DNA from: a virus
Virus record (IMG/VR): IMGVR_UViG_3300044858_000480
Span: 1-47,432 of that record
Direction: 5' to 3' (one strand)
Length of the DNA: 47,432 nt
Made by a program: the position numbers and the translations under genes. Positions 1 through 43,666 of the stretch are shown here, in pieces. Position 1 is the stretch's first letter. Each line of letters begins with the position of its first letter. The notes below the pieces were generated by a model. That model did no database searches, was not told where the DNA came from, and saw only the letters and a list, made by a program, of their open reading frames with translations.

Positions 1-117
1 AGTCATATAGGGATCTCCATCATGAGTATTACAAAATGGTTCTGTTATCCATCCCCGATCAATTCCATTATTAATCCATATTTCAAACTCTAATTCTTCT
101 GCTTTATCTATAGACAT
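1..117 (-). CDS. Small hypothetical protein, 3' end off the window
   Basis: Only the first 39 codons are inside the window. The reading frame opens at an ATG (117..115) with an AAGGA ribosome site about seven bases upstream and stays open to base 1. It begins 9 bases after the stop of the HslV-like gene, so it is the next gene of the same operon. The visible peptide is acidic and Trp-containing, with a Cys-Asn-Thr-His-Asp-Gly stretch near residue 29. I recall similar small proteins with this motif in actinobacterial phages, but no function is known to me. Coding status is well supported by the ribosome site and tight spacing. The function is unknown. Confidence 0.65.
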   Translation of the reverse strand, partial: MSIDKAEELEFEIWINNGIDRGWITEPFCNTHDGDPYMT

Positions 118-126
118 ATTATATCC

Positions 127-651
127 TTAAATACTAACTGTATCAATTGGGCCCATACATGATGTTGAGAATTTAATTGCAGATGCAACTGCACCAATAG
201 ATCTTTTACGTGCGTCCTTTTGATTTTCTGTAGCAAACAAATATCCCATTGCATACGATGAGCCAGAACCCATTGTAAGATATTCATTGTTATATTGAGT
301 TAATGACATGTCTGCTGCACTATGTTCAAAGATTTCACCTTTAACGCAAATGATCATTCCAAAATCAGAATCTTTTGAAACGTCTACCCACCAATCATTA
401 TAAAAATCTCTAAGTTCTTTGATAAACTTTGTATACATAAATTTTTGTATATTGTTTCCAGTTGGAATAGATGGTTTAAAATTATGTCGAATGCGTTCGC
501 CATCCATACTGCCTGCATAACCGATAATATACGGACCTAATTGCCAAACTTTTGGCGTGGAAGATGCAAGCATCATATCATCATCAGATACACCACGTTC
601 ACCAGACATATAAATTTTATCTTCTTTACGAACAGCAACAATACAAGTCAC
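127..651 (-). CDS. Proteasome/HslV-like N-terminal threonine peptidase
   Basis: This 174-residue protein looks like an Ntn-hydrolase of the HslV/20S proteasome beta family, self-compartmentalising peptidases whose nucleophile is the N-terminal threonine. I chose the GTG at 651 rather than the ATG at 708. An AAAGGGG ribosome site precedes it, a consensus promoter lies inside the longer frame, and the protein then begins Met-Thr-Cys-Ile-Val-Ala-Val, so Met removal exposes Thr1. In mature numbering Gly16, Glu17 (Asp17 in HslV) and Lys33-Val34 fall at the family positions. A later Gly-Ser-Gly-Ser-Ser-Tyr-Ala matches the HslV GSGGxYA loop near residue 127. Mature length (173) is nearly that of HslV. 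No HslU-type ATPase is visible. The fold call is strong; substrate and partner are unknown. It heads a new transcription unit. Confidence 0.82.
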   Translation of the reverse strand: MTCIVAVRKEDKIYMSGERGVSDDDMMLASSTPKVWQLGPYIIGYAGSMDGERIRHNFKPSIPTGNNIQKFMYTKFIKELRDFYNDWWVDVSKDSDFGMIICVKGEIFEHSAADMSLTQYNNEYLTMGSGSSYAMGYLFATENQKDARKRSIGAVASAIKFSTSCMGPIDTVSI

Positions 652-679
652 AAATACCCCTTTGATAGCACCTAAATCA

Positions 680-725: not shown

Positions 726-743
726 GTCCTATTTGTCCTATTT
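726..743 (-). repeat. Tandem 9-bp direct repeat upstream of the promoter
   Basis: The minus strand reads AAATAGGAC twice in tandem (743..726), and the adjoining bases make a small palindrome, TAGGA-TG-TCCTA, at 720..731 on the plus strand. The block overlaps the stop codon of the 96-residue membrane protein and ends 17 bases upstream of the -35 box. The position fits an activator or operator site, but no regulator is identified. Confidence 0.35.
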
Positions 744-1028
744 GCCCTTTTTATCTACCGCAGAAAATGCATTATTGATCTCTTGAATGGTAAGTTTTCC
801 GTCATCCAGAAAGCCCCTAGCGAGTCTCTCAACTACTGTTGCAACTCCTAATGTACCAGCCAAAATAACTGCTTCTACTGTGCTAATTCCTACTACTGCT
901 CCAGCACCTATTACGGATAGTCCTGATGCTGCGAAAACTGCAATAATACGCATAAGAATATTATTAATACTTGCAATTGCGCCAGATCCAACTTGGGTAG
1001 GCTCTTCAATTTGTTTTGCTCTTGCCAT
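738..1028 (-). CDS. Small membrane protein, holin candidate
   Basis: A 96-residue protein with a short polar N-terminus, two hydrophobic helices (about residues 20-43 and 46-66) and a charged C-terminal tail with an acidic turn (Asp-Asp-Gly-Lys-Leu) followed by a short helix. This layout is common for actinophage holins, which form inner-membrane lesions at lysis. The ATG has a GGAGGG site six bases upstream, and the gene starts two bases after the preceding 60-residue membrane gene, so the two are surely co-translated. No endolysin is adjacent in the window, so the holin role is inferred from topology and position. It could instead be another membrane accessory protein. Confidence 0.6.
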   Translation of the reverse strand: MARAKQIEEPTQVGSGAIASINNILMRIIAVFAASGLSVIGAGAVVGISTVEAVILAGTLGVATVVERLARGFLDDGKLTIQEINNAFSAVDKKGK

Positions 1029-1030
1029 AT

Positions 1031-1213
1031 TTAGCCCTCCTCTCTATTTCTTATTGGACTTGTGATTATCCAAAGAGTTGTAGTCGCTATGATTCCATAA
1101 CCAACTATTGTTTTTGCACTACCATCTAATACTACCCAGGCAATAAACATTCCAAGAAGGGTCCATGCCTGATCTATTAGATCTTTTATTATATTTTTTA
1201 TTATTCTTACCAT
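1031..1213 (-). CDS. Two-helix small membrane protein (holin-like)
   Basis: This 60-residue protein has an amphipathic basic N-terminus, two membrane segments (about 16-31 and 36-52) separated by a short Asp-Gly-Ser-Ala-Lys turn, and a charged C-terminus. The hairpin topology resembles small phage holins or antiholins. Its ATG overlaps the end of the secreted PA14 gene by 7 bases and has a strong GGAGG site. Together with the next gene it forms a pair of small membrane proteins, often seen as holin/antiholin partners. The pairing is inference. The coding call is firm from the ribosome site, overlap and hydrophobic pattern. Confidence 0.6.
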   Translation of the reverse strand: MVRIIKNIIKDLIDQAWTLLGMFIAWVVLDGSAKTIVGYGIIATTTLWIITSPIRNREEG

Positions 1214-3894
1214 TTTCTTCCTCCTCTTGAACCTGGTGAATTTGCTCCTGAAGAGCCTCCCCCAGAACTTCCTCCGCTACCTGAACCTCCTGTAGCGCCA
1301 CCTGCTGCTACTGCTGCTGCGTTAATTGCTGCACCTGTTGCAACAACTGTTGCCACAACCATATCTGTTGCTTCTTCTCGTTCTTCCTCAGTCATATCTG
1401 CACCAATACTTCCAAGGGCTGCTAATGCTGCTCCTGGGTCAGTAAATGCTGCTTCTAATAATGCTCCTGGGTCTTGAACTAATTCTATGTTTGCAGCAAC
1501 TTCAGCAGTAATAATAAGTGCGTTTCCATTTTCGTCAGTGCGTAGTTCTACTGGTGTTTCTGGTGGAAGATCTGCGTATGAAACTCCAGATGCCTGTACT
1601 TCTGCTGCAGATAGTGATTCTCCAGGCTTAAGATCTTCTAGTAATGCTTCAACGACAACTTCTTTTTGTTCTTCTGTTAATTCTTTTCCATCTTTTGCAT
1701 CTTCAAGTATTTCTTTTAACTCTTCTTCTTTTTCTTGTGCTGCCTCTTCTTCAGCCTTTGCCTCTTCTAATTCTTTTTCTTTGGCTTCTGCTTCTTCTTT
1801 GGCTTTTTCTTCTGCTTCTTTAGCAGCCTCTGCTTCCGCTTCTAATCTTTCCGCTTCTGCTTTAGCCTCTTCTTCAGCCTGTCTAGCAGCCTCTGCTTCA
1901 GCCTCTAATCTTTCAGCCTCTGCTTTAGCCTCTGCCTCTGCCTTGGCTTCTGCTTCGGCTTGTGCTTGTGCTGCTGCTTCTTCTGCAGCAATTCTATCTG
2001 CTTCAGCCTTTTGTGCTTCCGCTTCTGCTTGTGCTGCAGCCTGTTCTGCTGCTATACGATCTGCTTCAGCCTTAGCCGCTGCAGCCTCTGCTGCAATTCT
2101 TGCTTGCTCTGCTGCTACCCTTGCTTGTTCTGCTGCATATGCTTGTTCTGCAGCAACTCTGGCTGCTTCTGCAGCCTCTGCTGCCTGTCTAGCAATCTCT
2201 GCTAATCTTGCCTCTTCAGCGATTCGTGCTCTCTCTGCTTCTTCTGCAGCAAGAGTTTCTACTACTAAAGTTTGTGCTGCTGTTACATTTGTGTTCATTG
2301 AAGATACCGCATTTGTTACTGCAATTATTGCTGAGTTTAATTCATCTTGAGCATCTTCTAAATTTTCTTCTGCTTCAATAAGATCTTCTTCTGCTGTTTC
2401 AAGATCTGATTCTAAAATATCAAGTGTTGCCTGTGCAACCTGAAGGTTTGTTTGTGCTGTATTAAGTGCTTGAATTTGTTGTGGAGTTGCAGTAGATGTT
2501 GAAAACTCTGATCCAGGTATGACTGCCCATCCCAAGTTATCAGTATATCTAAGTAGACTTACTTCTGCTCCTCCACCATTTTCATAATACCAAAAATCTA
2601 AAGTCTTAGAAACTCCAGCAGTAGTCTGAATATCAGCAGTAGATCCTCCTCCACCCTTATCAAACCAGTCATTAATAACTAGTTCTCCATCAAGGTATAG
2701 TCTAGTACCATCATCTGCTGATGCTGTTATGTACTGTGTTCCAGTGTATTGTGGTGTCCAAAGTCCTTGCCATCTTACTTGAAAATCTTCTGTAACAGTT
2801 GTAGTTGTTTGAGTAGTTGCAGACACATTGTCTACTCCATAATAATCCCAGTTGGCAGGAATATTTATTGTTGCAATAGTTTTTCCTGTTGGTGCAGTAA
2901 TTGTTTCTTGATGAACATAGTTTGGGTATTCTTGACTAACATTATGCTGAATACTAAAAGTACTTGTAGTTCCGTCAGTATATGTAACTACGGCATTATG
3001 ATCACCATTTTTAGCAAAAACCTGGAAACTTGCAGAGGTTGTGTTTGCTGGCATAGTTATAAGAGTATCTGCAGTTGAACCTATAAGTGTTAGAGAAGGA
3101 TCTTGTCCAGGACCAGGGAATCCAATTGATCCTATATATACATTATTATTATTTGCAGTAGAAACAGGGGTTCCGTTTACTGTGATTCCAATATTAGTAT
3201 TTAAACTATTTCCTGCAAAAGTTTCAGTAATTGTTGTTGTTCCACCATTGACTGTTGGACCACTACTACCCCATTGTTCATTAATACCATTTGTGTCTGT
3301 TCCAGTGTAAACCAAGTTACCACCTTGTGCAGGAGATGCATTAGTGCCTGGGTTATGATAGACAGTCATTGTCAATCCAGGGCTAGTGTTTGCATTTACT
3401 ACTGCAGTAGCAGAGTCTACTAAACTTATATTTGTTCCAACTACTGCTGTTTGTGAGTCCACTGCAATCTGAGCAATTTCAACATTTTCTTCAGCCTCAG
3501 CAACTAAAACGGTAGCGGAATCAACTTGAGCCACAGCCACAGTAGCACTATCTACTACTGTCTGAGCCTGTACTATAGAGGTCTGAGCCTGTGTGATAGT
3601 GGCTGTAATAGTTTCTGTAGGGCTTGTAATGGCTGTTGCTTGGGTTTCTATGACTGCCGTTGCAGTTTCAGCCTGATTTATAGCAGTCTGGGCTACATCA
3701 ATAGTGGCTGTTGCACTTTCTATTGTTACTGTAGAGCCAGCACTGATCACTACTGTGGATGTGTCTGAGTTAGATACCTGCACTGTTAACTCATCAGCAT
3801 GAGCCATTTCTGCAGAACTAAAGATTAGCCAAATACCCACCAAAAAAGCAATTACCCCACTTTTTAGTAGGAGATTTTTAATAGAAGGCCACAT
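1207..3894 (-). CDS. Secreted PA14-domain surface protein on a long helical stalk
   Basis: An 895-residue modular protein. Residues 1-33 are a Sec signal peptide ending Ala-His-Ala before Asp34. Residues 40-165 are a Thr/Val/Ala helical segment. A PA14 domain, a carbohydrate-binding beta-barrel, begins near 172, is interrupted by a beta-sandwich module (about 220-360), and resumes at 368-465 with the family signature Ala-Asp-Asp-Gly-Thr-Arg-Leu-Tyr-Leu-Asp-Gly. Residues 470-735 are an Ala/Glu/Lys-rich helix or coiled coil with 21-residue repeats. A small folded region (740-835) precedes an Ala-rich hydrophobic helix (about 843-866) and a Gly/Ser tail ending in basic residues, which looks like a membrane anchor. 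I infer a host-envelope protein shown on infected cells, not a virion part. It follows a terminator and has its own extended -10 promoter. Confidence 0.75.
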   Translation of the reverse strand: MWPSIKNLLLKSGVIAFLVGIWLIFSSAEMAHADELTVQVSNSDTSTVVISAGSTVTIESATATIDVAQTAINQAETATAVIETQATAITSPTETITATITQAQTSIVQAQTVVDSATVAVAQVDSATVLVAEAEENVEIAQIAVDSQTAVVGTNISLVDSATAVVNANTSPGLTMTVYHNPGTNASPAQGGNLVYTGTDTNGINEQWGSSGPTVNGGTTTITETFAGNSLNTNIGITVNGTPVSTANNNNVYIGSIGFPGPGQDPSLTLIGSTADTLITMPANTTSASFQVFAKNGDHNAVVTYTDGTTSTFSIQHNVSQEYPNYVHQETITAPTGKTIATINIPANWDYYGVDNVSATTQTTTTVTEDFQVRWQGLWTPQYTGTQYITASADDGTRLYLDGELVINDWFDKGGGGSTADIQTTAGVSKTLDFWYYENGGGAEVSLLRYTDNLGWAVIPGSEFSTSTATPQQIQALNTAQTNLQVAQATLDILESDLETAEEDLIEAEENLEDAQDELNSAIIAVTNAVSSMNTNVTAAQTLVVETLAAEEAERARIAEEARLAEIARQAAEAAEAARVAAEQAYAAEQARVAAEQARIAAEAAAAKAEADRIAAEQAAAQAEAEAQKAEADRIAAEEAAAQAQAEAEAKAEAEAKAEAERLEAEAEAARQAEEEAKAEAERLEAEAEAAKEAEEKAKEEAEAKEKELEEAKAEEEAAQEKEEELKEILEDAKDGKELTEEQKEVVVEALLEDLKPGESLSAAEVQASGVSYADLPPETPVELRTDENGNALIITAEVAANIELVQDPGALLEAAFTDPGAALAALGSIGADMTEEEREEATDMVVATVVATGAAINAAAVAAGGATGGSGSGGSSGGGSSGANSPGSRGGRKW
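1804..2073 (-). repeat. 63-bp (21-residue) repeats coding the helical stalk
   Basis: Within the stalk of the PA14 protein two pairs of tandem 21-residue units are seen: residues 608-628/629-649, each beginning Lys-Ala-Glu-Ala-Asp-Arg-Ile, and 656-676/677-697, each beginning Ala-Lys-Ala-Glu-Ala-Glu-Arg-Leu. Twenty-one residues is three heptads, so units could be gained or lost without disturbing the helix register. The repeats are coding, not a CRISPR or origin. Confidence 0.6.
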
Positions 3895-5686: not shown

Positions 5687-7462
5687 TTATATTAAGTTGA
5701 ATTTATCTAGGAAATCCTTAACATCGTTAGGCATTTCCCGATTATCCAATTCTACCATACGCTGCTGCTTTTCTGCAAGTCGTGCTGAAGAACTCCACGT
5801 ATGGATTTCTATCTCTGTATTGTTAGTCTTTTGCGTGTGGGATATTGCTCCAAATACCGCCCCACAAACCGCATCAGCCAAGTCTTTTGATTTTTTACGA
5901 GGGTGATCTACCCTATTCCCCTTCATTATTTTTAATTCTGACATCTCTTCTAATAGTAAAGGAATCATTGGAATAGCAACACGCTCTTCATAAATCATCA
6001 TAGCCAGGTCTTCATAGTGTTTTTTAGCAACTGAGACTGTTTCTGTTTTAATTCCAACAGCCTGCAATTCATTTTGAATATCAAATGATTGCCATCTGTC
6101 AAATGAAACCATACCGATATTAAAACCTTCTCTACGCAAATTAATAATCCATTGTTTTACTTCAGATAAATTGACTGGTCCCTCTGCTCTTGGCTCCCAC
6201 CAAGCAACGGCATCAACAACAACTATGGGGGCCACCTGCTCATAGTCTTTAATAACTTGAATATTAACCCATTTATCAACATGTGCAATAGCAACAGCAC
6301 ACTTGTCATGTTTTTGTGCAAGGTCAGCATGAATATAATAAACTTTGTCTGGATCTGGTTTAAATGTTGCGTCAAACCTTCTAAATTGGTCTAACGGATT
6401 TCTAGTATTCATACATTTTTCTAACTTTTCTTTTTGCTTAAAAAAAGCATCTGAAGCATATGTTGGAACACATGCAAAGCGCATCATTGCATCTGCTAAG
6501 TCTGTATAAAAGGCTAATTTAAAATCATCTATTTTGCGGGTAGGATTTACTTCCCATGTAGGTCTTTTAAAAGCCAAAACCTTTGGAACTTTGTAAGAAA
6601 TGATGGAATCTTCTTCCCAGTTAATTTCAAACTGATTGTTTGGGTCATCGTGTGGTAATTCTTCATTCATAATAAAGACATGCTTTTTCTCTATTGTTTC
6701 TTTTTCTGCAATTACATCTTCATATCTTTTAGAGATAAAGTCTCCTTGATACCGTGGGAAAGAAAGTAAAACTACTTTTCCAAGATCTGGAAAACGAGAA
6801 TCCACAGTACCACGAAACGCTTTATAAATATTTTCTGCAGTTTTACCTTGTTCATTGCCAGTTCCAACCTCAGATGCAAAACCAGAAATTTCATCAAGTA
6901 CGGCAAGCAGCAAGTTCAAACCCTCATGTGATTCACGCTCTGAGTGACCAGAGTAAACGGTGATTGATTTATCAAACTCAACGCTATCAGCCTTTGCATT
7001 GTATTTACCTGCAAACCAAGGAGATTTTTCAATCTTTGTTTTAAAACCTTTAAAGAAAACATTCTTAGCCTGTTGTGCGTTAATAGCAACGTTAATTAAA
7101 TCTATCGCATCCCCGCTTGGTTTTCCGAAGTATCTTGCGGGATCTTTGAGACAAAGTAACTTATAAACAATGTAAGCACAAGCAACAGTGGAAGTAAAAT
7201 CTTTACCACTACCTTTCCCCAACTGTAAGATGATTTCGTTTTTTGTATATTTTTCATAATATCTAGCCCCCTCTACTGATCCATAAAGTTCCTGTAAGTC
7301 TTCTTTTTTGTATATCTGACTCATTGCTTCTACAATGTCATATTGAATAGATGATAGCGGTGGTTGTCCCAAATAATCAGAAGACTCAACAAATGTTTTT
7401 GCGTCTACTGGGATTTCTTCAAACTGATTTTCTTTTAATACTTCAAGAAAATCATTGAACAT
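5687..7462 (-). CDS. terL: Terminase large subunit
   Basis: A 591-residue DNA-packaging motor. The N-terminal ATPase shows a Walker A-like Gly-Lys-Gly-Ser-Gly-Lys-Asp near residues 82-88, where Asp replaces the usual Ser/Thr, and a Walker B ending Val-Leu-Asp-Glu near 188-191. The C-terminal RNase H-like nuclease has Asp in a His-Ala-Asp-Leu strand (about 379), a second Asp near 455 and a third near 527 (Lys-Asp-Leu-Ala-Asp-Ala). It packages concatemeric DNA into proheads through the portal. I favour the ATG at 7462; an in-frame TTG at 7471 is better spaced from the AAGGAG upstream, so the start is uncertain by three codons. It overlaps the small subunit by 11 bases. Its location after replication genes, far from the portal, is unusual. 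Confidence 0.9.
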   Translation of the reverse strand: MFNDFLEVLKENQFEEIPVDAKTFVESSDYLGQPPLSSIQYDIVEAMSQIYKKEDLQELYGSVEGARYYEKYTKNEIILQLGKGSGKDFTSTVACAYIVYKLLCLKDPARYFGKPSGDAIDLINVAINAQQAKNVFFKGFKTKIEKSPWFAGKYNAKADSVEFDKSITVYSGHSERESHEGLNLLLAVLDEISGFASEVGTGNEQGKTAENIYKAFRGTVDSRFPDLGKVVLLSFPRYQGDFISKRYEDVIAEKETIEKKHVFIMNEELPHDDPNNQFEINWEEDSIISYKVPKVLAFKRPTWEVNPTRKIDDFKLAFYTDLADAMMRFACVPTYASDAFFKQKEKLEKCMNTRNPLDQFRRFDATFKPDPDKVYYIHADLAQKHDKCAVAIAHVDKWVNIQVIKDYEQVAPIVVVDAVAWWEPRAEGPVNLSEVKQWIINLRREGFNIGMVSFDRWQSFDIQNELQAVGIKTETVSVAKKHYEDLAMMIYEERVAIPMIPLLLEEMSELKIMKGNRVDHPRKKSKDLADAVCGAVFGAISHTQKTNNTEIEIHTWSSSARLAEKQQRMVELDNREMPNDVKDFLDKFNLI

Positions 7463-7988
7463 TGTGGACAATTGTAATCACTTCTCCTTCTTTAGCAATT
7501 TCAGATAAACGTTTCATTATTAAGTCACGAACTTCTGGATGACTTGAAGCAATGTCTCTTAATATTCCAACCAAAACTTCCTGCCTTCTTTCAATTTGAA
7601 CCATTTCTTCTGCAAGTTCTTTATTCTCAAGAAGCCCAGCCTTTTGAAGCATTTCAATTCTAGATTTTTCAATGTCCATTACAAGTTTAATAGCCTGAGT
7701 TTTTGCACTAAGATTATTCGTCATTGATGCCTCATCAATAACCTCGTAAGATTTTGTAATTAATTTACTATAGTGTGCATCTGCTCCAGCAAGTGCTTCT
7801 TTTGCACGAGCACGAATTGCTTCATTAGCAGAAGCCATAACTTTCCACTCATTAATTAATGCAACAACACGAGTTCTTGGCATATCCAAATCTTTAGAAA
7901 TTTTTGTTGGATCTTGTCCCTTAAGATATTCTGCAACAACTTTATTTACCTCATCAAGGTGATCAATTAGTTCTTTTTCAGTTGACAT
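7452..7988 (-). CDS. terS: Terminase small subunit
   Basis: A 178-residue protein with an N-terminal helix-turn-helix (about residues 18-48, including Ile-Ser-Lys-Asp-Leu-Asp-Met-Pro) and a long helical, Glu/Lys-rich remainder suited to ring oligomerisation. Small terminase subunits recognise packaging DNA and regulate the large-subunit ATPase. The assignment rests on the HTH-plus-coiled-coil layout and its place directly before the large subunit, which it overlaps by 11 bases. Its ATG overlaps the preceding gene by 11 bases. Sequence families of small subunits diverge strongly, so the call depends partly on synteny. Confidence 0.75.
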   Translation of the reverse strand: MSTEKELIDHLDEVNKVVAEYLKGQDPTKISKDLDMPRTRVVALINEWKVMASANEAIRARAKEALAGADAHYSKLITKSYEVIDEASMTNNLSAKTQAIKLVMDIEKSRIEMLQKAGLLENKELAEEMVQIERRQEVLVGILRDIASSHPEVRDLIMKRLSEIAKEGEVITIVHNVQ

Positions 7989-27876: not shown

Positions 27877-28512
27877 TTAAACTTCTTCCAGTGTTACCGA
27901 TATGTTCCAAAGATCATGATTTGTTGCACCACGCTTTACCACGGAATAATTGAAATCTGCAAAATAAACTTGAATGATTTGATTGTATCTGTTTAAACCA
28001 TCATACTTGTATTCTTGCCCTTGTAAGTTTGTATACTTATCATAAGCAAGGTACATCCAAAAAGGCCCTTGGTGAGTTTCATACCAATCAAGAATTTCTA
28101 CTCCACCAGCACCACCGTCTGCTGTATATTCTGATATAGATCCTTCACTTGGTGCTATACCTGTTGTTTCATTAAAACTAGCCAATCCTGCATATCCTCT
28201 TGAAGGAAGCATACTCCAAGATACAGACATACTCAACTTATCTGCAATATGATATGAACGCATACGACCATTTATAGTTCTTGTTCTTTGTTCAATTCTT
28301 TGGGTATTAAATTGCATTTCACCCCTATTGTGATCAGACAAAATGATAAACTGGTCTAACAGATTAACATCTGTTTCTTCTGTATCTGCACCTACCTCTA
28401 TGCCATTTGGCACGTATAGGCCATTAGAGAGCGTTCCAGGGTTGTTTGCCCATAATATGCCCTGTGGTCTTGTATACCTTCGTCTACCCGTCAAATAAGC
28501 ACTAGTAGCCAT
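27877..28512 (-). CDS. Distal-tail-like minor tail protein
   Basis: A 211-residue beta-rich protein with basic N-terminus, immediately after the tape measure (1-base junction) and before the hub protein, the standard position of the distal tail (Dit-like) protein that joins tube and tip. Features include Ile-Ile-Leu-Ser-Asp-His-Asn-Arg and a C-terminal Leu-Trp-Asn-Ile-Ser-Val-Thr-Leu-Glu-Glu-Val strand, typical of tail-tube-fold proteins. No direct motif proves Dit, so the call rests mainly on synteny and size. Confidence 0.65.
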   Translation of the reverse strand: MATSAYLTGRRRYTRPQGILWANNPGTLSNGLYVPNGIEVGADTEETDVNLLDQFIILSDHNRGEMQFNTQRIEQRTRTINGRMRSYHIADKLSMSVSWSMLPSRGYAGLASFNETTGIAPSEGSISEYTADGGAGGVEILDWYETHQGPFWMYLAYDKYTNLQGQEYKYDGLNRYNQIIQVYFADFNYSVVKRGATNHDLWNISVTLEEV

Positions 28513-31500
28513 TAGACTCTTTGCCCCCTAATTCTTTGTGCATCAACATTTTTAATTTCTCTCATTACGACTCTAGCAATGTCATTGGCGTTTGAGTTAC
28601 TTCCATTAATGCTAAAGCCTAAATTATAATTATACACTGCCGTTGAGTTATCGCTTACAGACGTTGAAACATTATTAACTGGAACCTGTGCGCCCATTCT
28701 GTTTCCGATCATTGATGGATATTTTGACTCATTTAGCATTGATAACATTGGGCCAAACTCTGCAGTCGCCCCCTTATTCATTACGAATTCTCCAGGGGTA
28801 AGCATTGTTGGTACACTATCAGAGCCTATGCGTCCACCAGTAGCAAGATACTTAGGAACCATACCACCCATACTCATTGGCTTAACCATGCCACCATACA
28901 TTTTTCCTGGTATCTTAATAACCTGTCCTGGTTTAATCAAACTTGGATTTTTAATTTGTGGATTAGCCTTAATTACACTTGCAAGGCTAACTCCTGCTTT
29001 TGATGCAATTCCACTTAATGTGTTGCCAGACTTTACTGTAACTGTTGATCCAGTTGATTTTTTTGTTGTTGATGTTGTTGATGTTGTTGATCCTGTGGTT
29101 GAGCCTGCCTGTCCAAATGGGGTGCCCGTATTTGTTGGAGTGTTAAAACTTAATGTTGATGCAGCCTGCATTGATGCAAGAATACTTGCCCATGCACCTG
29201 ATGCTGTAGTGGAAGATGCTGCAATTCCATCTATATTAATCTTTAGGCTATTTGATTCTTTATTAGATGCCTCTACATATTGCTGAATAAAATTCCACTC
29301 TTGTCTTGTCATTCCATTAATCTGTAAAGATTTTTGCTCTCTGTCAATTTGGAATGCAAGGTCCGATAAAAGTTGTCGTTTTATATCTGCTTGTCTTTGT
29401 AAAGGCTCAAGTTGTACTACTTCAATATTATAAATTTGATCACTTAAAGTAATTATCTCTGTTTCAATTTGCTTTCTAGTTAATTTTTGACCATTAACAA
29501 CTGCTGTAATTGAAGACAATTCCCTTTGTTTTTGTAATTCTAAATTAGTCGCTGCAGTTTCTAATCCAACACCCATTCTATTCAAAGATTCTTGTGCAGA
29601 CTCTGCTCTCATTTCTTGTGCTGCTGCTGCTGCAGCAGAAATGTCACCTTGTGTTAATGCATTAGCAATGCCAAGTTGTTTTTGTTGTTGTGAAATTAAA
29701 AATGAATTTATTGATTTTATTGATTCCAGAGCATCTCTCTGTTTATTCAAAGAATCAATTTTTTGGTCATACGTTTCGGTGATTGCAGTTTCTTGTCTAC
29801 CAATCAAATCAAGAGTACGATTATAAGACTTAATCTTTGAATTAATATCACCAATCGTATTTTGTATTTTATCAATTGATCTTTCATCTAGAGCAACGCT
29901 TAACTCCATTTCTTCTGGAGTCATTTTATTTATTGACTTAAATGCTGCTCTTGCCTTTCTTTCAATTTCAAGAAATCCAAAATCAAATCTTTCGCTTAAC
30001 TGTTCTGCTGCACCTTCTGCTAACTCATCTGCTTCAAATTGAACAGCCTTTAATGCTGCTTCAAATTTTCTGGCCTCAACAGTTGCTTTCTTTGTTTCGT
30101 CAGCCATCTTAGTAAATGCTTCAGGACTTATCTTGCCAGTTGCAACTGCTGCTGCCATCGCTGGATCTTCAAGCATTTTTAAGGCAGTGGCTGCATCAAC
30201 GCCCTTTTTCTTAAGAATTTCCAATGCTTTAATTTGTATATTGTTTTCATTTTTTATTTTTTCTTGTGCTCTTAAATAAGTTCCAGCCTGAACTGTAGGG
30301 AATAATTGATTAAGTGCTTTGCCGTATTGATTTAAAACTAATTTTCCATTTTTAGCCTTATCTGTAACTTTATTAAAGAATTTTGCAGCATTTTCTGCAT
30401 CTAGTCCTTCTGCAAATTGCAAAACACTTTCATTAACTTTTAGTTTTGATAATTTATTGACAACACCATTAAAGCCATCTATTGTTTTACCTTTGCCAAG
30501 TTGTTTTAATAACTCGTTCCAGCCACCAGTAGCATTTACAGATTCTTTTCTAAACAACTTTAATTTTACTAATAAGTCATCAAGGAATGTATCTCTAGTT
30601 TTATTTGAAGAAGGTGGTGTGGCTGGTCCTGTTGGAATCGGACCTGGTAAAATACCACCTTTTGCAATTAAATCTGCTACATTCTTGCCAGCAGAAGCAC
30701 CAAAACCCTTAAAGTTTGGATCATTAGAGACAACATCAAAAGCAACCTTTAAGTTTTTATTTATAACATCTTTACCCTCAGATAATATCGCCCATTGATC
30801 ATAAAATGCTTTCCACTCTCCTGGCTTTTCTTCTGCAAGTTTTGCAACTGCCTCTTTTGTCAATTTGTCTGGAAGTGTTTCAACTTGTCTTAATGCATTT
30901 GTTGCTGTTGCTAATTGCTGTACTCCATTGGCCTTAAGGTCAAGAGTAATTCCATATGTAGGATTTATTTGATTTAAGAAACTTAAAGCCTGCATATCTT
31001 TATCAAAATCTTCACTATTATTATTAATATATGAAAGCATAAGGGTTCTACTTGTATCTGTAGCACCATCTGTTGGTAATAATTCTGCTATCAATGCAGC
31101 ATCTGCAAGCCCTTGCTTATCAACCAAAAGGTTAAATGATGCTTCAAATCCCTTGTTTCCTGCTGCAGTTGAAAGAATTTTTGTAATGACTGCTGGGCTA
31201 ACTTGTCCAGAAGCAAGACCTATTTGCAATTGTGCCTTAAAGTTTGAATCTTTTAATTTATTTAAAGCCTCTATTGCCTGATCTTTAAAGACAGCCATAG
31301 GACCTTCTTTATACATTGCATCTGCTGCTGCCTTAATACCTTTAGTAAATGCTTCTTCGCCTAATTGATTTCTTTGACCTACTAACAAGGCTAATGCTTT
31401 TGCATTACTTGAATTTAATTGATCAAGAGCAATTTTTCTTTCATCTTGAATTGTTTTTATTTCTTGTTCTGTTTTTGCAGATTTTAATTTTATATCATAT

Positions 31501-34500
31501 TGTTTATTTAATGAATCTACAAGTCCTTGATTTTGTGCTACTTCTTGTATTCCAAGTTCAACTGCTGCTGCTGCAAGTTTAACATTTACGGCTTTTCTCT
31601 TATTAGCATCGTATTCTCCACCAACCATAAGACCAGCACCTGTGGCTGCTGCTGCTGCGCCTACTGGCGCTGCTGCTCCAGCAGTAAGAACGGTTGCTGC
31701 CACACCACCAGCAATTAGTCCAAATCCAGCAAGTCTTGATAATACGTTTGGAACAGTTGACTCACTAATAGCACCATCAATTGCTGTTTTAAGTGAATCA
31801 GCCTGTCGTTGCATAGAATCTTTTTGTATTTGTAGTGTTACCTGTAATGGATCATTAGCAAGGTTTTCTCCATTTGGACCAAGAATAGATACAAGTTTTC
31901 CACTGACAAGTGCTGGTATCTCATAACTTCCAAGTTCTTCTCCAAGTGCTGCAGCAATACTTCTTGCTTGACTTGTTGTTACTGCTCCTTGTGCAACTGC
32001 AACTGCTAAATTATTAGCAAGGTTTTGAGATATTTCTTTAACTGATTTACCACTTTTAGCCTGAACTTGTATGTCTGCAAGTATTTGTTTTCCAAATTCG
32101 CTTCCTAAAACATTTTGCCCAAATTGTCGTTGTCCTTCAACTGTGCCAGAAACAATATTTTTTCTTCTTCTTGCAGCCTCTTCACTTGCACTAACTGTTC
32201 CCGCAATGACCGATAAATCTACTAACTTTTTAGATGTCATAGACATAGCATTAGCAAGATCAACTCCTTCTTTTCTTGCCTTTTCTATATCTTTAGCCAT
32301 TTTTATTAATATTCCACCTACTAATGCAATTGCTGCTACTATTGCAACCCAAGGATTTGCAAGCATAGGAAGAAGCATTGTAATTCCTTGTAGCCCAAAA
32401 ACAAATGGCATTATTGTTTGAGCCATTTCTCCTAATTTACCGCCAGCAAAAGATGCTGCAATTGTAAGTCCAGAAACTGCACCTATACCAAGACTTGCCT
32501 TTGAACTAAACTCTGATAACTTTTGCTTTGTTGTTTTTTGAGCCTCTGTAGACTCATTCATTGCATTTGTTAGTTTGCCCTCTGCTGCAATGCGCCGTTT
32601 GGCCTCTTTTAAACTTATCTTTTCTACTGCTGCTAACAACTGAGCACGAGACAGCCTTGCTGATTGTGATACTTCTCCAAGTGTAGTTCTTCCAGTTTTT
32701 GGATCAACTTGTGGTGCATTTGCAAACCCACGAAGTCTTCGCATTCTTTGAACTACAGTTTCGTTTGGATTAAGTGTTGTTGTTCTATTATCTGAAACAT
32801 TTCTGCTTGTTGTTTGAATAGATGCTGGTTTTCTTTCAGTATTTTGTCCAGTTAATGGTATTAAATTACCTTTTGCATCAACCTTATATTCTCCTCTTGC
32901 TCTAACAGCAACAGTTTCTTTTTGAGGTTGTTTACTAATTAATCTATCAAAACGATCATTCATTGACTTAGTAATCTTGAGGACTTGTCTGCCTCCACCA
33001 AGGAATTCTCTTTGTGACTTAAACTTTCCATCAATTAATCCATTGATTACATTATTTTTTGTAATTTTTCCACCTGTTATTTCAGGTCTGCGGTAAGCAA
33101 CAATTTCACCTTTATCATTTAAACTGGTTGGAATTAATAGTTTTGGATCAATCGCCTTTAACTCATTTAATTTTTTAACTAATATTGGATTTGAATTAGT
33201 TTTTTGTACAGCCCTAATAACATCATCAATTGACTTTAACTTATCTGTTTTAATTTTTGATCCGCCAACAGCACTTGTAGATGCTGCGCCAAGTAATGTT
33301 CTTGCTGATCTAGATACAATTGGATCTGTAGATTTTGCAAGAGCACCCATAATTCCAGATCTTTCGTTACCCATTCTAGAATAAATCATCTTGTCATTAA
33401 TTAAGGCACTATCTGGTAAAGAATTTAAAGATTTTAATAAATTTGTTCTAATTTCTTTTGCAACTCTAAGTGCATCTGTATCTGGAATTCCCTGCTTTGA
33501 AAGACTTATTGTCATTGTCCTTAAAGAGTTGTCATCAAGAATTGCTCGTCTATAGTCTCCAGCAGTAACTGTTGAATTTTTTCTATTTAGTTGAGAGTTC
33601 ATCTCTTTAGGAATGTCAAATCCAACAGCAGTATATAAATTCTCTCTTCCAAAACCAAGTTGTCTAAATTGTTCTGAAACCTTTGCTCCAGAAACTTGTT
33701 TATGATCTACGGCATGTCCAAATACTAAGTTTGATTTAGTTGGATTTTTTCTTGCATTCATTCTTGCAAGAAGTGCTGCGCTTCTTGCAGCAAAGGCTTC
33801 GTTGGTTTCTGTTGTTCTAGATCTGCCTGCAAGAAGGTCGTTTACTTGGCTTGGATTAGTATTAAGAACCTGTGATGAAGGTCCACTTAGATCCATTACT
33901 GGTTGGAACTGTGGAGAGTTAGCAAATGGTTGTGCATTTCCAGTACCATTGCCAAATGCCTGAAGTTTACCACTAAGCAATGCCTCAATAATTGGCTGGA
34001 CTTGTGGGTTTTGTGCAATGTCTGTTGGGATAACCGCTTCTCCAGGCATAAGTACTGCAGGAACATTATCTTTATTACCTCTTCCTGGTACAGATGCAGT
34101 TCCTCTTGCAAATTTCTTTGGTACCCCGCCTTTGCCAGGCATCATCATTCCTGGGTTGGCTCTAGCAAAGTTTGCTGCTGCTACTGTCGCATCAATATAG
34201 GCTTGACGAAGTGCTCTAACAGCAGATGCCTCAATATTAAATTGCTGCGTAAGCCTATTGTGTGCTTGGTTTAGTGATGCTGCTACTGTTGCAGCCTCTA
34301 GTTGTTCTACTGATAAATAATTTGTTTGTTCTGCAAGGATTTTACTATTTCCACCAAGTTTTAAAAATCCTGTACGCATTATTGCAAATAGTTTTATGCC
34401 GTTTGCCACTGCGTTCATAAGCAAACCAAAAGTCATTAATAATACTGGACCAATTATTCCAACCAGCGTTGTTGCAATTACAATAAATTTCTTTGTGCCA

Positions 34501-36113
34501 TCCCCAAGGTTATTAAACTTATCTAATAAACCTGCAACTGATTGTGCAATTGGTGTTACTGCTTCTAAAAATGTTTTACCAACTGGCTCAAGTGTTAATC
34601 TAAGATCTTCAATTGCTTTTTTAAACTTAGTTCCAACCGCATCCTCTAAAACTCCAAGTTCTCTTTCAGACATAATTGCGAGTTGCTCAACAGAATTTGT
34701 TGTCAACCCAAGAACTTTTGCAGCCTGTGTTCCATCCTTGGTTACGTTCTGGAATAGTGTTGATAGACGTGAGAACTGGAACTTACCAAACAACTGTTCA
34801 ATTGCACGAGCACGATTAAGAGGATCAAGTGTATCTAGTGCTCTGGAAAAATCAATTACTGTTTGCTGAATATTTCCCTGATTACCTTCAACAATGGCTT
34901 TGATATTAATTCCCATATCTGCAAGCATCTCAGATGCCTTTTTAGTTGGATTAATAAGTGATGCTAAACCAGACTTAAGTGCGTTAGCACCCTCTGATGC
35001 ATTGATTCCGCCTTCTTTCATTGCTGTTAAGAAGAATGCCAAATCTTCAACATCTCCACCAAGTTGCTTTACAACTGGACCTGCTTTAGGAATTGCAATA
35101 GTCAAATCTTCAATAGATACGACTGTTTGGTTTTCAACTGCGTTAAGGAAGTTTATTTTCTTTGCTAAATCTTCTGCTGCTGTACCAAATGCGTTTGTAA
35201 TAGATATAGTTGTTTCTAGGGCTTGTCCTTGTTCTACCCCGCCAAGAACAGCAAGTCTAGTAGCCTGTGCAACCTGTGCAGTAAGGTCTGCTCCAGTCTT
35301 ACCCATTGCTGCAGCATCTGCTGCCATCTTCATCGTATCTACAACTGCAACTCCATATTTAGTAAATGATTCTGCCAGTTCTCTTACATTATTAAGAGCC
35401 TCATTTGTTTGTTCTGTTGTTGTAAATATATCTCCATATACACGCTTAAACCTAATGGCCTGTGCTTCAAGATCCATAAAAGTTTTTCCAGCGACAGTTC
35501 CAAGATAGGCAAGCGGAATTGTAAAGCCGACCATAAGTTGGCGACCTGCCCACTGTGTATTTTTACCAAAATTTAAAAGATTGGTTGAACCTTGTTTTAC
35601 TAACTGATTAAATAGTGCCTGTTTCTGTGCTGCTAGTGCAACCTGTGTGCCATAATCTTTCATGTTTAGGCTAGTTGGAGTAACAGAAATAGCCTTCATT
35701 GCACCGCTGGCATCACGGCCTAATTTAATATATTGTGTTTGTAATCTTTTTACACGATCTTGCGCTACCTTGCCAATTGTGTCAAATTCTGATTTAAATA
35801 ATCTTCCAAATGTTTTTGTAGATCCACCAGCGTAGCGGAAGTACTCCCGCATTGAAAGTTTGTTTTTTTCAAGAGCATTTGTAAAAGACTCTGTGGATGT
35901 TCTAACGACACCCATTTGTGCTGAGAATTTGCCAGTAGCATTTATTGAGTTCAGCAGATTCTGCTGCATGTTTCGTTGCTGAGCAGCAGCAGAAGCACTA
36001 CCCTTTGATACCGAAGTATGGAATAGTGCTAACTGTCGCTGTAAACTTTTAAGTTCCGCTAACGCCTGCGACGTATCAATTTGTACGCCAATTTTGGCAT
36101 TAACATCACTCAT
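28512..36113 (-). CDS. Tail tape measure protein
   Basis: A 2533-residue tape measure that sets tail length and passes into the host. At about 0.15 nm per residue this predicts a tail near 380 nm, less any globular part. Helical N-terminus; a TP901-type core at about 210-470 (Gly-Gly-Val-Glu-Gln-Gly-Gln-Ala-Leu; Phe-Leu-Thr-Ala-Met-Lys-Glu-Gly-Gly); hydrophobic stretches near 535-570 and 1230-1270. Motifs of the form Asp-X-Val-Pro-X-Met/Leu-Leu-X-Pro-Gly-Glu occur near 680 and again near 2430. A mixed, less helical region spans about 760-1130. Near the C-terminus a Thr/Ser linker precedes a LysM domain (about 2355-2402). AGGTG precedes the ATG. Confidence 0.93.
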   Translation of the reverse strand: MSDVNAKIGVQIDTSQALAELKSLQRQLALFHTSVSKGSASAAAQQRNMQQNLLNSINATGKFSAQMGVVRTSTESFTNALEKNKLSMREYFRYAGGSTKTFGRLFKSEFDTIGKVAQDRVKRLQTQYIKLGRDASGAMKAISVTPTSLNMKDYGTQVALAAQKQALFNQLVKQGSTNLLNFGKNTQWAGRQLMVGFTIPLAYLGTVAGKTFMDLEAQAIRFKRVYGDIFTTTEQTNEALNNVRELAESFTKYGVAVVDTMKMAADAAAMGKTGADLTAQVAQATRLAVLGGVEQGQALETTISITNAFGTAAEDLAKKINFLNAVENQTVVSIEDLTIAIPKAGPVVKQLGGDVEDLAFFLTAMKEGGINASEGANALKSGLASLINPTKKASEMLADMGINIKAIVEGNQGNIQQTVIDFSRALDTLDPLNRARAIEQLFGKFQFSRLSTLFQNVTKDGTQAAKVLGLTTNSVEQLAIMSERELGVLEDAVGTKFKKAIEDLRLTLEPVGKTFLEAVTPIAQSVAGLLDKFNNLGDGTKKFIVIATTLVGIIGPVLLMTFGLLMNAVANGIKLFAIMRTGFLKLGGNSKILAEQTNYLSVEQLEAATVAASLNQAHNRLTQQFNIEASAVRALRQAYIDATVAAANFARANPGMMMPGKGGVPKKFARGTASVPGRGNKDNVPAVLMPGEAVIPTDIAQNPQVQPIIEALLSGKLQAFGNGTGNAQPFANSPQFQPVMDLSGPSSQVLNTNPSQVNDLLAGRSRTTETNEAFAARSAALLARMNARKNPTKSNLVFGHAVDHKQVSGAKVSEQFRQLGFGRENLYTAVGFDIPKEMNSQLNRKNSTVTAGDYRRAILDDNSLRTMTISLSKQGIPDTDALRVAKEIRTNLLKSLNSLPDSALINDKMIYSRMGNERSGIMGALAKSTDPIVSRSARTLLGAASTSAVGGSKIKTDKLKSIDDVIRAVQKTNSNPILVKKLNELKAIDPKLLIPTSLNDKGEIVAYRRPEITGGKITKNNVINGLIDGKFKSQREFLGGGRQVLKITKSMNDRFDRLISKQPQKETVAVRARGEYKVDAKGNLIPLTGQNTERKPASIQTTSRNVSDNRTTTLNPNETVVQRMRRLRGFANAPQVDPKTGRTTLGEVSQSARLSRAQLLAAVEKISLKEAKRRIAAEGKLTNAMNESTEAQKTTKQKLSEFSSKASLGIGAVSGLTIAASFAGGKLGEMAQTIMPFVFGLQGITMLLPMLANPWVAIVAAIALVGGILIKMAKDIEKARKEGVDLANAMSMTSKKLVDLSVIAGTVSASEEAARRRKNIVSGTVEGQRQFGQNVLGSEFGKQILADIQVQAKSGKSVKEISQNLANNLAVAVAQGAVTTSQARSIAAALGEELGSYEIPALVSGKLVSILGPNGENLANDPLQVTLQIQKDSMQRQADSLKTAIDGAISESTVPNVLSRLAGFGLIAGGVAATVLTAGAAAPVGAAAAATGAGLMVGGEYDANKRKAVNVKLAAAAVELGIQEVAQNQGLVDSLNKQYDIKLKSAKTEQEIKTIQDERKIALDQLNSSNAKALALLVGQRNQLGEEAFTKGIKAAADAMYKEGPMAVFKDQAIEALNKLKDSNFKAQLQIGLASGQVSPAVITKILSTAAGNKGFEASFNLLVDKQGLADAALIAELLPTDGATDTSRTLMLSYINNNSEDFDKDMQALSFLNQINPTYGITLDLKANGVQQLATATNALRQVETLPDKLTKEAVAKLAEEKPGEWKAFYDQWAILSEGKDVINKNLKVAFDVVSNDPNFKGFGASAGKNVADLIAKGGILPGPIPTGPATPPSSNKTRDTFLDDLLVKLKLFRKESVNATGGWNELLKQLGKGKTIDGFNGVVNKLSKLKVNESVLQFAEGLDAENAAKFFNKVTDKAKNGKLVLNQYGKALNQLFPTVQAGTYLRAQEKIKNENNIQIKALEILKKKGVDAATALKMLEDPAMAAAVATGKISPEAFTKMADETKKATVEARKFEAALKAVQFEADELAEGAAEQLSERFDFGFLEIERKARAAFKSINKMTPEEMELSVALDERSIDKIQNTIGDINSKIKSYNRTLDLIGRQETAITETYDQKIDSLNKQRDALESIKSINSFLISQQQKQLGIANALTQGDISAAAAAAQEMRAESAQESLNRMGVGLETAATNLELQKQRELSSITAVVNGQKLTRKQIETEIITLSDQIYNIEVVQLEPLQRQADIKRQLLSDLAFQIDREQKSLQINGMTRQEWNFIQQYVEASNKESNSLKINIDGIAASSTTASGAWASILASMQAASTLSFNTPTNTGTPFGQAGSTTGSTTSTTSTTKKSTGSTVTVKSGNTLSGIASKAGVSLASVIKANPQIKNPSLIKPGQVIKIPGKMYGGMVKPMSMGGMVPKYLATGGRIGSDSVPTMLTPGEFVMNKGATAEFGPMLSMLNESKYPSMIGNRMGAQVPVNNVSTSVSDNSTAVYNYNLGFSINGSNSNANDIARVVMREIKNVDAQRIRGQRV

Positions 36114-42331: not shown

Positions 42332-42907
42332 TTAGTTAAATAGGTCGGTTGATGTGAGGAAACGACCGCCCCATAGGGATTTTTGAACCACTTGTGGTGA
42401 TTCCTGTACGATCTCGCCTAGATCGCCAGACTTGCGGAAAGCGGTGTCTTGTTCTACAAGATCTACTCGCTTGCCAAACTCGTTAAAGTTATTCTTGATA
42501 CCGTTAACATCTGATGTTACTGCATCAAGAGATTTTGTTACTGCTGTTACCTTCTCATTAAGAGATTTGATAGTTGCAGCAAGATCGCCAAAGGCATTAG
42601 TAAGAGAAGTATTAATTTCTGAAACTGCCTTGGCAACTTCTTCTTTAACATCTGCAATAGATTTTTCCACTACATTCTCTACTTCAACTGCTGCTTTTGC
42701 AGCAGAAGATTCTGCACCACCATCATCCGATTTAGCAACAGCAAGTTCTTCAACTACTGGTGCTTCTTCAGCGACTGCAGGAGTTTCTGCTGTTTCTGCA
42801 ACAACCTCTGTTGTTACATCTGCTGCTACTTCTGCTGGCTGTGCCTCTGGAGCAATCTCTGCATTTTCAACTGCAGTTTCTACAACTGCTTCTGTTGATT
42901 CTGTCAT
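42332..42907 (-). CDS. Nested in-frame scaffold protein within the protease gene
   Basis: A second start inside the protease gene, in the same frame: ATG at 42907 (Met254), seven bases after a near-perfect Shine-Dalgarno AAGGAGGT (42922..42915). The 191-residue product would contain only the Glu/Ala/Val-rich segment and coiled-coil C-terminus, with no protease domain. This is the composition expected of a scaffold, and the arrangement parallels lambda C protease with nested Nu3. It would be made in excess over full-length protease, whose own start has no ribosome site. The sequence evidence is the SD, the spacing and the domain boundary; expression itself is inferred. Confidence 0.7.
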   Translation of the reverse strand: MTESTEAVVETAVENAEIAPEAQPAEVAADVTTEVVAETAETPAVAEEAPVVEELAVAKSDDGGAESSAAKAAVEVENVVEKSIADVKEEVAKAVSEINTSLTNAFGDLAATIKSLNEKVTAVTKSLDAVTSDVNGIKNNFNEFGKRVDLVEQDTAFRKSGDLGEIVQESPQVVQKSLWGGRFLTSTDLFN

Positions 42908-43666
42908 TTGATTTACCTCCTTAGTAATCTTAATTGTATTAATGCCTTTAGCACTATCAACTAAGAATTTTATCATTTCTGCATTATCTTTATCATTCTT
43001 TTCTATAAAACCAATATTTTGCATTTTGTTTCCAGTTACTGGACTTGTTACTGAATCAGAATCTGAAACCATAACAATGCCGTTTTCTGAATCCCAAAAT
43101 ACGTTCTCAATTTCTGTTTTTGACAAATATCCATCTACTACGTTTTGTCCATTTACCTTTTCAATAGATAAAATATTTGCAAACTGGTTTGCTGGATTGT
43201 CTACAAGAGATAACTCATGCAGTTCATATGTTTTGATTACACGAATTGTTTTATCAATTTTTTCATCATAAGCATCATCCCAAGTCTTTATATTGCCACC
43301 AATTGAAAATCCAGTGTATGTTCCATCTAAAACTTTTTCCCAAGCATCTTGTGCACCTTTAGAAACATATGCAGATACGTAAACTCCACTATAAAACTTT
43401 TTGTCGTTTGGATCAAAATATTTGTCTTCTTTAAAAGAAACAATCTTTCCTACAGCACTTGGCTGGTGCATTTCACGAAGATTGCCACGGAAGTTTTTAA
43501 AAGCCTCTATACTAGATTCTGTTGTAACTATGTCGCCTTGGCGATCAACGTTATCAAGCGTAGCAAAGCCAGACACCATACGGCGTTCAACATCTACTTT
43601 TCCAATGGGCATTGAAAGGCGAACATTGTCACCTTTAGTTTCCCAATGAGCCTTGTTTATTAACAT
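42332..43666 (-). CDS. Prohead protease fused to scaffold (XkdF/HK97-like)
   Basis: A 444-residue protein. Residues 1-165 resemble phage serine prohead proteases: a strand region ending Gly-Asp-Ile-Val, candidate catalytic His67 (Arg-Glu-Met-His-Gln-Pro) and Ser121 (Tyr-Thr-Gly-Phe-Ser-Ile-Gly-Gly), then Glu-Leu-Ser-Leu-Val-Asp-Asn-Pro-Ala. Residues 255-345 are Glu/Ala/Val-rich and the rest is coiled coil ending in a small folded tail, a scaffold-like part that guides prohead assembly and is then degraded. The ATG at 43666 has no Shine-Dalgarno, but a TGCTATAAT box ends 9 bases upstream, suggesting a leaderless mRNA. Confidence 0.82.
   Translation of the reverse strand: MLINKAHWETKGDNVRLSMPIGKVDVERRMVSGFATLDNVDRQGDIVTTESSIEAFKNFRGNLREMHQPSAVGKIVSFKEDKYFDPNDKKFYSGVYVSAYVSKGAQDAWEKVLDGTYTGFSIGGNIKTWDDAYDEKIDKTIRVIKTYELHELSLVDNPANQFANILSIEKVNGQNVVDGYLSKTEIENVFWDSENGIVMVSDSDSVTSPVTGNKMQNIGFIEKNDKDNAEMIKFLVDSAKGINTIKITKEVNQMTESTEAVVETAVENAEIAPEAQPAEVAADVTTEVVAETAETPAVAEEAPVVEELAVAKSDDGGAESSAAKAAVEVENVVEKSIADVKEEVAKAVSEINTSLTNAFGDLAATIKSLNEKVTAVTKSLDAVTSDVNGIKNNFNEFGKRVDLVEQDTAFRKSGDLGEIVQESPQVVQKSLWGGRFLTSTDLFN

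Follow-up and report, generated by a model that had tools for sequence, protein, structure and literature searches.

Uncultivated viruses encode a protein that its sequence, its conservation and the fold predicted for it identify as a threonine peptidase of the proteasome type. Its gene is followed by that of a small Cys/His protein, and in a few relatives an unrelated protein from a peptidase clan stands in its place beside the same small gene. We analyzed a 47,432-nucleotide stretch of viral DNA (IMG/VR record IMGVR_UViG_3300044858_000480, positions 1 to 47,432), referred to below as the window. The features needed for the argument, with the evidence for each, are as follows.

1..117, minus strand: the small Cys/His partner as far as residue 39, where the window edge cuts it, with its start visible at 117 (translation; family alignment)
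127..651, minus strand: gene for a 174-aa proteasome-like threonine peptidase related to HslV and BPH, with a mature form of 173 aa that begins at Thr1 (PF00227, PHROG 1040, AlphaFold model, structure matches, invariant residues)
657..663, minus strand: Shine-Dalgarno-like AAAGGGG before the GTG start of the protease (read from the sequence)
738..1028, minus strand: 96-aa small protein directly upstream of the protease (PHROG 26427 'nuclease', E 3.6e-24; hydrophobic and holin-like by eye)
1031..1213, minus strand: 60-aa small hydrophobic protein, a conserved family ('TM60') in related loci (sub-threshold Pfam match alone)
5687..7471, minus strand: terminase large subunit, the upstream landmark (PHROG 2, E 8e-18; same order in related loci)
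42332-43666: head maturation protease (PHROG 9427, E 4e-116)

The protease gene starts directly before a conserved threonine

The open frame spans 127-708 on the minus strand, and translation from the GTG at 651 yields a protein beginning M-T-C (MTCIVAVRKEDKIYMSGERGVSDDD...), as an earlier note on this DNA had proposed. The codon immediately before Thr1 was a start codon in all 108 protease loci that include the start region, the window among them (ATG in 53, GTG in 29 and TTG in 26), and 83 of the 108 contained no earlier in-frame start. These results support 651 as the start of the protease, and the alternative start at 708, which the earlier note had named as evidence that would speak against its reading, was rejected. 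A Shine-Dalgarno-like stretch preceded the Thr1-adjacent start codon in 108/108 loci, as scored with a lenient pattern and without a shuffled control. L001, a copy of the window, was counted in the set of 109 rows and excluded from the 108 start-codon loci; L069 retains too little of the protease gene, and rows without residue 1 were excluded from both the start and the residue counts. The dN/dS values of the protease gene between the window and eight relatives were 0.05-0.15, indicating purifying selection.

The mature protein would comprise 173 residues, close to the 175 of E. coli HslV as had been claimed. In mature numbering it carries Thr1, Gly16, Glu17, Lys33-Val34 and GSGSSYA at 127-133, each at the place named in the proposed catalytic spacing (Gly16, an acidic residue at 17, Lys33-Val34 and a GSGxxYA loop). 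Conservation was counted over 115 distinct full-length homologues (176 matches in all, with 173 full-length rows before duplicate removal). Thr1, Gly16, Arg18, Lys33, Gly43, Gly46 and Ser128 were invariant in 115/115, and thus no homologue lacked Thr at residue 2 of the translated protein or Lys33, either of which would have counted against the earlier assignment. Position 17 was Asp in 88 and Glu in 27, and Gly43 is, by alignment, the oxyanion position. The column that is Asp in the betaproteobacterial proteasome homologue BPH (PDB 5ovu/5ovs), which we take to be Asp166 of the proteasome, was Ser (94) or Asn (21) among the 115 homologues of the window family. On the alignment, this replacement would speak against a catalytic mechanism like that of the classical enzyme.

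Family and predicted fold

The window protease scored above the cut-off of the Pfam Proteasome family (PF00227; 23.4 bits vs 22.4), and a divergent relative in locus L202 fell just below it with 21.3 bits. PHROG 1040 ('peptidase HslV family') matched over residues 1-174 with an E value of 9.2e-18 and was also matched by 3/3 relatives scanned, and tblastn at E <= 1 linked the window protease to 165 phage records, all below 60% identity. A 23-sequence profile, built from the window and 22 relatives and compared with solved structures, found BPH (4e-6), archaeal proteasome beta (3.5e-5) and HslV (8e-4). An AlphaFold2 model of the protease, with 23 window and locus sequences as input, reached pLDDT 90.7 and pTM 0.88, and its predicted fold is the Ntn-hydrolase alpha-beta fold. 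With this model, Foldseek ranked BPH and HslV first (BPH, E 1.9e-11), and VIA-align gave a tie between HslV (Z 19.7, 164 aligned, 2.6 A; HslV rows span Z 18.0-19.7) and BPH (Z 19.6, 165 aligned, 2.4 A). The predicted viral proteins that best matched the model were phage proteins, a few of which bear the name HslV or proteasome beta; a predicted structure from Gordonia phage Daredevil matched with an E value of 4e-9. The profile search and structure prediction for which the earlier note had called thus agree with its claim of a phage-encoded proteasome/HslV-like protein with an Ntn-hydrolase fold. From the modelled fold we infer a chamber and peptidase activity.

The HslV-like fold, Thr1 behind the start codon and the catalytic set all held up; an identity with HslV itself did not. 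HslV orthology was rejected at 25.1 bits against the 157.75-bit HslV equivalog cut-off, and assignment to bacterial 20S proteasome beta at 13.9 bits against the 191.9-bit 20S_bact_beta cut-off. HslV shares with the window protease the fold, a near-equal length and a gap-free Thr1/Lys33 spacing, but its C-terminus aligns poorly and no HslU-type gene was found in the phage records searched, which may be fragments. BPH is among the best structural matches, has a similar C-terminal P-I-D and, like the window protease, comes without a known unfoldase; however, it is 19-22% identical to the window protease on structural alignments, and the long acidic pore loop of Cm-BPH falls in a seven-residue gap of the window protease. 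BPH has been reported to lose its Met, to bind epoxomicin at Thr1 and to form tetradecamers, and to be inert on standard substrates in vitro (PMC5777263). Because BPH is inert in this way, intact catalytic residues are not proof of proteolysis.

The family profile of PHROG 1040, whose phages include T5-like, Aeromonas, Vibrio, Geobacillus and other phages, matches the window protease in full length, and the aligned reference phage proteins keep the columns of Thr after Met, Asp/Glu17 and Lys33 as in the window. The window protease was 21.9-31.3% identical to phage proteins among the 60 matches listed. The window family has Y-A-G-[STA]-x-D-G where most other PHROG 1040 members have F-T-S-S-F-R-M-G or alike, and a small Cys/His partner is conserved beside it that was not seen around the 15 more distant homologues scanned. 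Other phage homologues sit in different surroundings: those of S124 and Geobacillus E3, for example, lie close to thymidylate synthase/DHFR, and those of Pseudoalteromonas and Vibrio phages close to PhoH. A Salmonella jumbo phage was reported to have HslV without HslU (PMC7823757). In the lake phage DSL-LC01, a predicted actinophage, a gene annotated HslV lies directly before WhiB; the words HslV and proteasome are both absent from the main text of the DSL-LC01 paper (PMC10611076) and from two papers on freshwater actinobacteria phages (PMC6802176, PMC10202952).

PPH, AAH and CPH were described as Group I proteasome homologues, some of them in phages, without a known unfoldase partner or function. 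Their authors reported neither informative gene contexts nor AAA+ partners that co-occur with the three, and found AAH in no phage specific to Actinobacteria (Fuchs, Alva and Lupas 2021, PMC8665760). PPH has ~140 residues and is without helix H2 (PMC8665760). Membership of PPH was rejected for the window protease, which has 173 mature residues and in which helices 51-57 and 68-86, which we take to be H1 and H2, both precede strand 98-103. Comparison with AAH and CPH used their published description. By score, length or loop, the window protease is neither HslV, PPH nor BPH; it may belong to AAH or form a subfamily of its own. Phage proteasome homologues being already known (PHROG 1040; Fuchs et al. 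2021), it is not a new kind of protein.

Searches for an unfoldase

PF07724 (AAA_2, HslU/ClpX-type) gave 0 matches at E <= 1 in the window, bearing out the earlier remark that no HslU-like ATPase was in view, and was above cut-off in 0/13 large records (12 IMG/VR records and DSL-LC01, which may be fragments). PF00004 was above cut-off in 0/12 large IMG/VR records, possibly fragments, and in 1/13 records once the distant phage DSL-LC01 was included; weak sub-threshold PF00004 matches occurred in 4/12 IMG/VR records. As no phage unfoldase was found, peptides or proteins that are already unfolded are the most likely substrates of the protease, although an unfoldase may be encoded outside these records or come from the host.

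A small Cys/His protein is encoded beside the protease

In related loci the genes run in the order terminase, Ig-like/PA14-type protein, 60-aa protein, 96-aa protein, often a CHAP endolysin, protease and small partner. The partner has ~56-80 aa in relatives and the motif W-[IL]-x-x-G-[IV]-x-x-G-W-[IV]-x-x-P-[FY]-C-x-T-H-[DE]-G ... E-W-x-x-G-G-D-P-C. Of the 86 loci that extend 2.5 kb or further downstream of the protease, 83 have it there, 74 as a called gene and 9 by motif, and it was not found in L076, L077 and L079; in 50 of the 74 called loci its start lies 16 bases beyond the end of the protease gene. Adjacency of protease and partner (86/103) ranked 13 of 41 gene pairs in the related viruses. 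Since 12 of the 40 other pairs were more conserved, adjacency alone was rejected as proof of a functional pair. The junctions flanking the two genes were more variable: upstream, the protease was the next gene after 41/60 of the 96-aa genes with room downstream and after 32/67 CHAP endolysins, and downstream the commonest family followed the pair in 30/93. A scan of 16 loci, namely 15 more distant homologues with 3 to 12 kb of flanking sequence and E. coli hslV, did not show the partner in any of them.

The same pairing was recovered from the partner side. A scan seeded with the partner returned at least 595 relatives, of which the best 80 were used and 74 gave new loci, seven of these (L146-L152) on contigs already found by the protease query. 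The protease was present in 67/74, that is 67/71 testable loci, the contigs of L160, L174 and L184 beginning within ~50 bases of the partner start; no gene intervened between protease and partner in 64/67, and one did in L196, L211 and L214. Without L146-L152, the 67 loci comprised 60 with the protease, 4 with a DUF885 protein and 3 cut. The partner itself showed no convincing known family or fold in Pfam, NCBIfam, PHROGs, PADLOC, PDB sequences, Foldseek and VIA: its model (pLDDT 82) gave a best Foldseek E value of 5.3 and a best VIA Z of 2.3, and tblastn against phages found nothing at E <= 0.1, with a best E value of 2 at E <= 10.

Several neighbors deserve a separate mention. The 'holin' label for the 96-aa protein was given by eye and was rejected for want of profile backing; the PHROG 26427 'nuclease' label may itself be wrong, its members looking small, hydrophobic and holin-like. 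Likewise, an 'M6 peptidase' label given by eye to a 469-aa protein was dropped, as there was no profile match at all. The 895-aa protein at window positions 1207-3894 has a PA14 domain (Pfam E 2e-9) within Ala/Glu-rich sequence, where relatives differ. After the small partner, many loci encode a secreted-looking protease-like protein (e.g. L039 2329-3231) that is subtilase-like by eye and matches PHROG 'protease' at E 1.5e-7, with no Pfam match. An Hsp20 family lies within 10 kb of the protease, upstream or downstream, in 16 of the 19 loci with at least 9 kb on both sides (e.g. L089 5069-5485), membership being confirmed in one case (Pfam 2.8e-18); this points to a possible proteostasis link. 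A Rhizobium etli plasmid homologue of the protease has Hsp20 ~1.6 kb upstream. For the plasmid homologues of Streptomyces and Paraburkholderia, the gene tables, which are incomplete, show no Hsp20 within 3 kb.

A DUF885 protein takes the place of the protease in a few relatives

Four loci (L155, L192, L215 and L216) have room for the protease but lack it, and in each a 548-aa DUF885 protein lies directly before the partner. The Pfam E values for DUF885 were 3e-114 to 1e-121 in the three slot proteins scanned, and the L215 and L216 proteins are identical. The protease was absent from the whole records of these loci (0/4; 38 to 80 kb), and the same query was positive in 8/8 records of an earlier scan. 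A scan for DUF885 proteins of this type found 5 contigs with 4 distinct proteins, and the partner was the next gene in 5/5. The genes standing in place of the proteasome-like gene are:

L215 4302-5945: DUF885 slot gene
L192 4300-5943: DUF885 slot gene
L155 4287-5930: DUF885 slot gene
L223 8001-9644: DUF885 slot gene

DUF885 has been placed in the peptidase-MA clan (PMC12572635). Against the phage collection, the L215 protein had three matching records only, with 24-29% identity over 38-64%. All the virus loci counted here, those with the protease included, are related to one another, so that the numbers do not represent independent events. DUF885 rarely occupies the slot, and its insertion there could be due to chance. 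The swap beside the same small gene suggests that the job of the slot is cytoplasmic peptide or protein breakdown and is not bound to the proteasome fold. On the strength of these few swaps, peptidase activity would be what the slot needs, and the partner would take part in the same process. The protease-partner pair is apparently new: neither the pair nor the DUF885 swap was found in the openly licensed literature, where the partner has no name by which to search.

Proposed function and alternatives

The explanation that we favor overall, and regard as likely, is that the phage makes an N-terminal threonine peptidase that forms a ring chamber, works free of an ATPase of its own and shares its process with the partner. 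Once Met is removed, Thr1 would lie exposed and constitute the nucleophile system together with Asp/Glu17 and Lys33, and the subunits would assemble into a small closed ring chamber on the analogy of BPH and HslV. This chamber would cut peptides and unfolded proteins without an ATPase of its own. It would act late in infection; the gene lies in a late-gene region, where its neighbors encode small hydrophobic proteins and, in many relatives, a CHAP endolysin. The Cys/His protein would probably take part in the same process as an adaptor, gate or regulator, and in the few relatives the DUF885 protein, from a metallopeptidase clan, fills the slot. A more far-reaching version, which we offer tentatively as a possibility, is a dedicated peptidase slot in which the Cys/His protein is the common adaptor or regulator of either a proteasome-like ring or a DUF885 protein, both doing the same late job, perhaps with Hsp20. 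If this is true, two unrelated catalytic machines serve one late-infection job, the breakdown of peptides or unfolded proteins. Proteasome homologues with no known unfoldase have been on record for years with no function assigned to them, and Fuchs et al. (2021) gave no clue from context; the conserved partner and the natural swap for an unrelated peptidase-clan protein make the function of at least one such homologue testable.

We consider it unlikely that the protease serves counter-defence or host takeover by targeting specific host or defence proteins, a role of the kind raised in the earlier note to which none of our results points. Its gene is under purifying selection, and the separate head maturation protease at 42332-43666 leaves it free for another role such as this. 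However, the gene lies beside terminase, endolysin and small hydrophobic genes and not in an evident early region, and PADLOC, the library of which covers defence and not counter-defence, matched 0/10 proteins (the protease, the partner and eight neighbor-type proteins).

Quite unlikely, in our judgement, is a true HslV that joins host HslU, or a subunit of the host 20S proteasome, either of which would redirect the host degradation machine. The closeness of the fold to HslV and the failure to find an HslU-type ATPase in the phage records are consistent with such a role, but both profile scores lie far under the HslV and bacterial 20S beta cut-offs. That DUF885 proteins can occupy the slot further speaks against any dependence on rings of the host, and none of our results points to the assembly with a host proteasome that the earlier note had raised.

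That the protein is a relic devoid of catalysis, or has kept the fold for binding, finds a precedent in BPH, which showed no measurable proteolysis in vitro (PMC5777263), and in the replacement of the Asp column described above. We nevertheless hold it to be very unlikely, as a catalytic set kept in 115/115 homologues and a start codon before Thr1 in 108/108 loci would be unexpected in a non-catalytic protein. A virion or head-maturation protease for particle assembly would suit the terminase and other late genes nearby but is highly improbable, since the window already encodes a head maturation protease and other phage homologues are located elsewhere in their genomes.

Virus, host and distribution

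By PHROGs, the window encodes a DNA polymerase (PHROG 405), a DnaB-like helicase, primase, SSB, a UvsX-like recombinase and a RuvC-like resolvase, as well as the terminase, a portal, the head maturation protease and a tape measure protein; its G+C content is 36%. The best listed matches of the DNA polymerase (55% identity over the whole length) and of the capsid protease (48% identity over 75%) were both from Streptomyces phages. A WhiB family was present in 45 of 108 related loci, one member being confirmed by Pfam and PHROGs, in a set from which the greedy ORF picker used for gene calling lost 7 loci. The similarity to Streptomyces phages and the WhiB genes in related loci, the two lines of evidence on the host, make it likely that this tailed phage infects actinobacteria.

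The window protease alone found 68 IMG/VR loci. With the protease alignment as query, at least 583 related IMG/VR stretches were found, of which the best 80 were used; these place the family branch in uncultivated viruses, and those examined carry actinophage marks. Two scans of bacterial and archaeal genomes, with a reach limited to close relatives, confirmed no host homologue of the protease among 9 and 10 candidate stretches. A tree was built from 25 homologues, among them a Rhizobium and a Streptomyces plasmid homologue. The window and its closest relatives (8 rows) form a separate clade with 100/100 support, and the branch leading to it measures 2.34 changes per site. Its sister group is not fixed, since deep forks are open or weak and very long branches lead to BPH and HslV.

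Two further window genes are recorded here as minor observations. The gene at 8470-9114 matches PHROG 3704 'ferredoxin' (E 5e-55; auxiliary-gene category), with no Pfam or NCBIfam match. The 2533-aa tape measure protein at 28512-36113 carries an endolysin-like domain near its C-terminus, at about residues 2276-2409.
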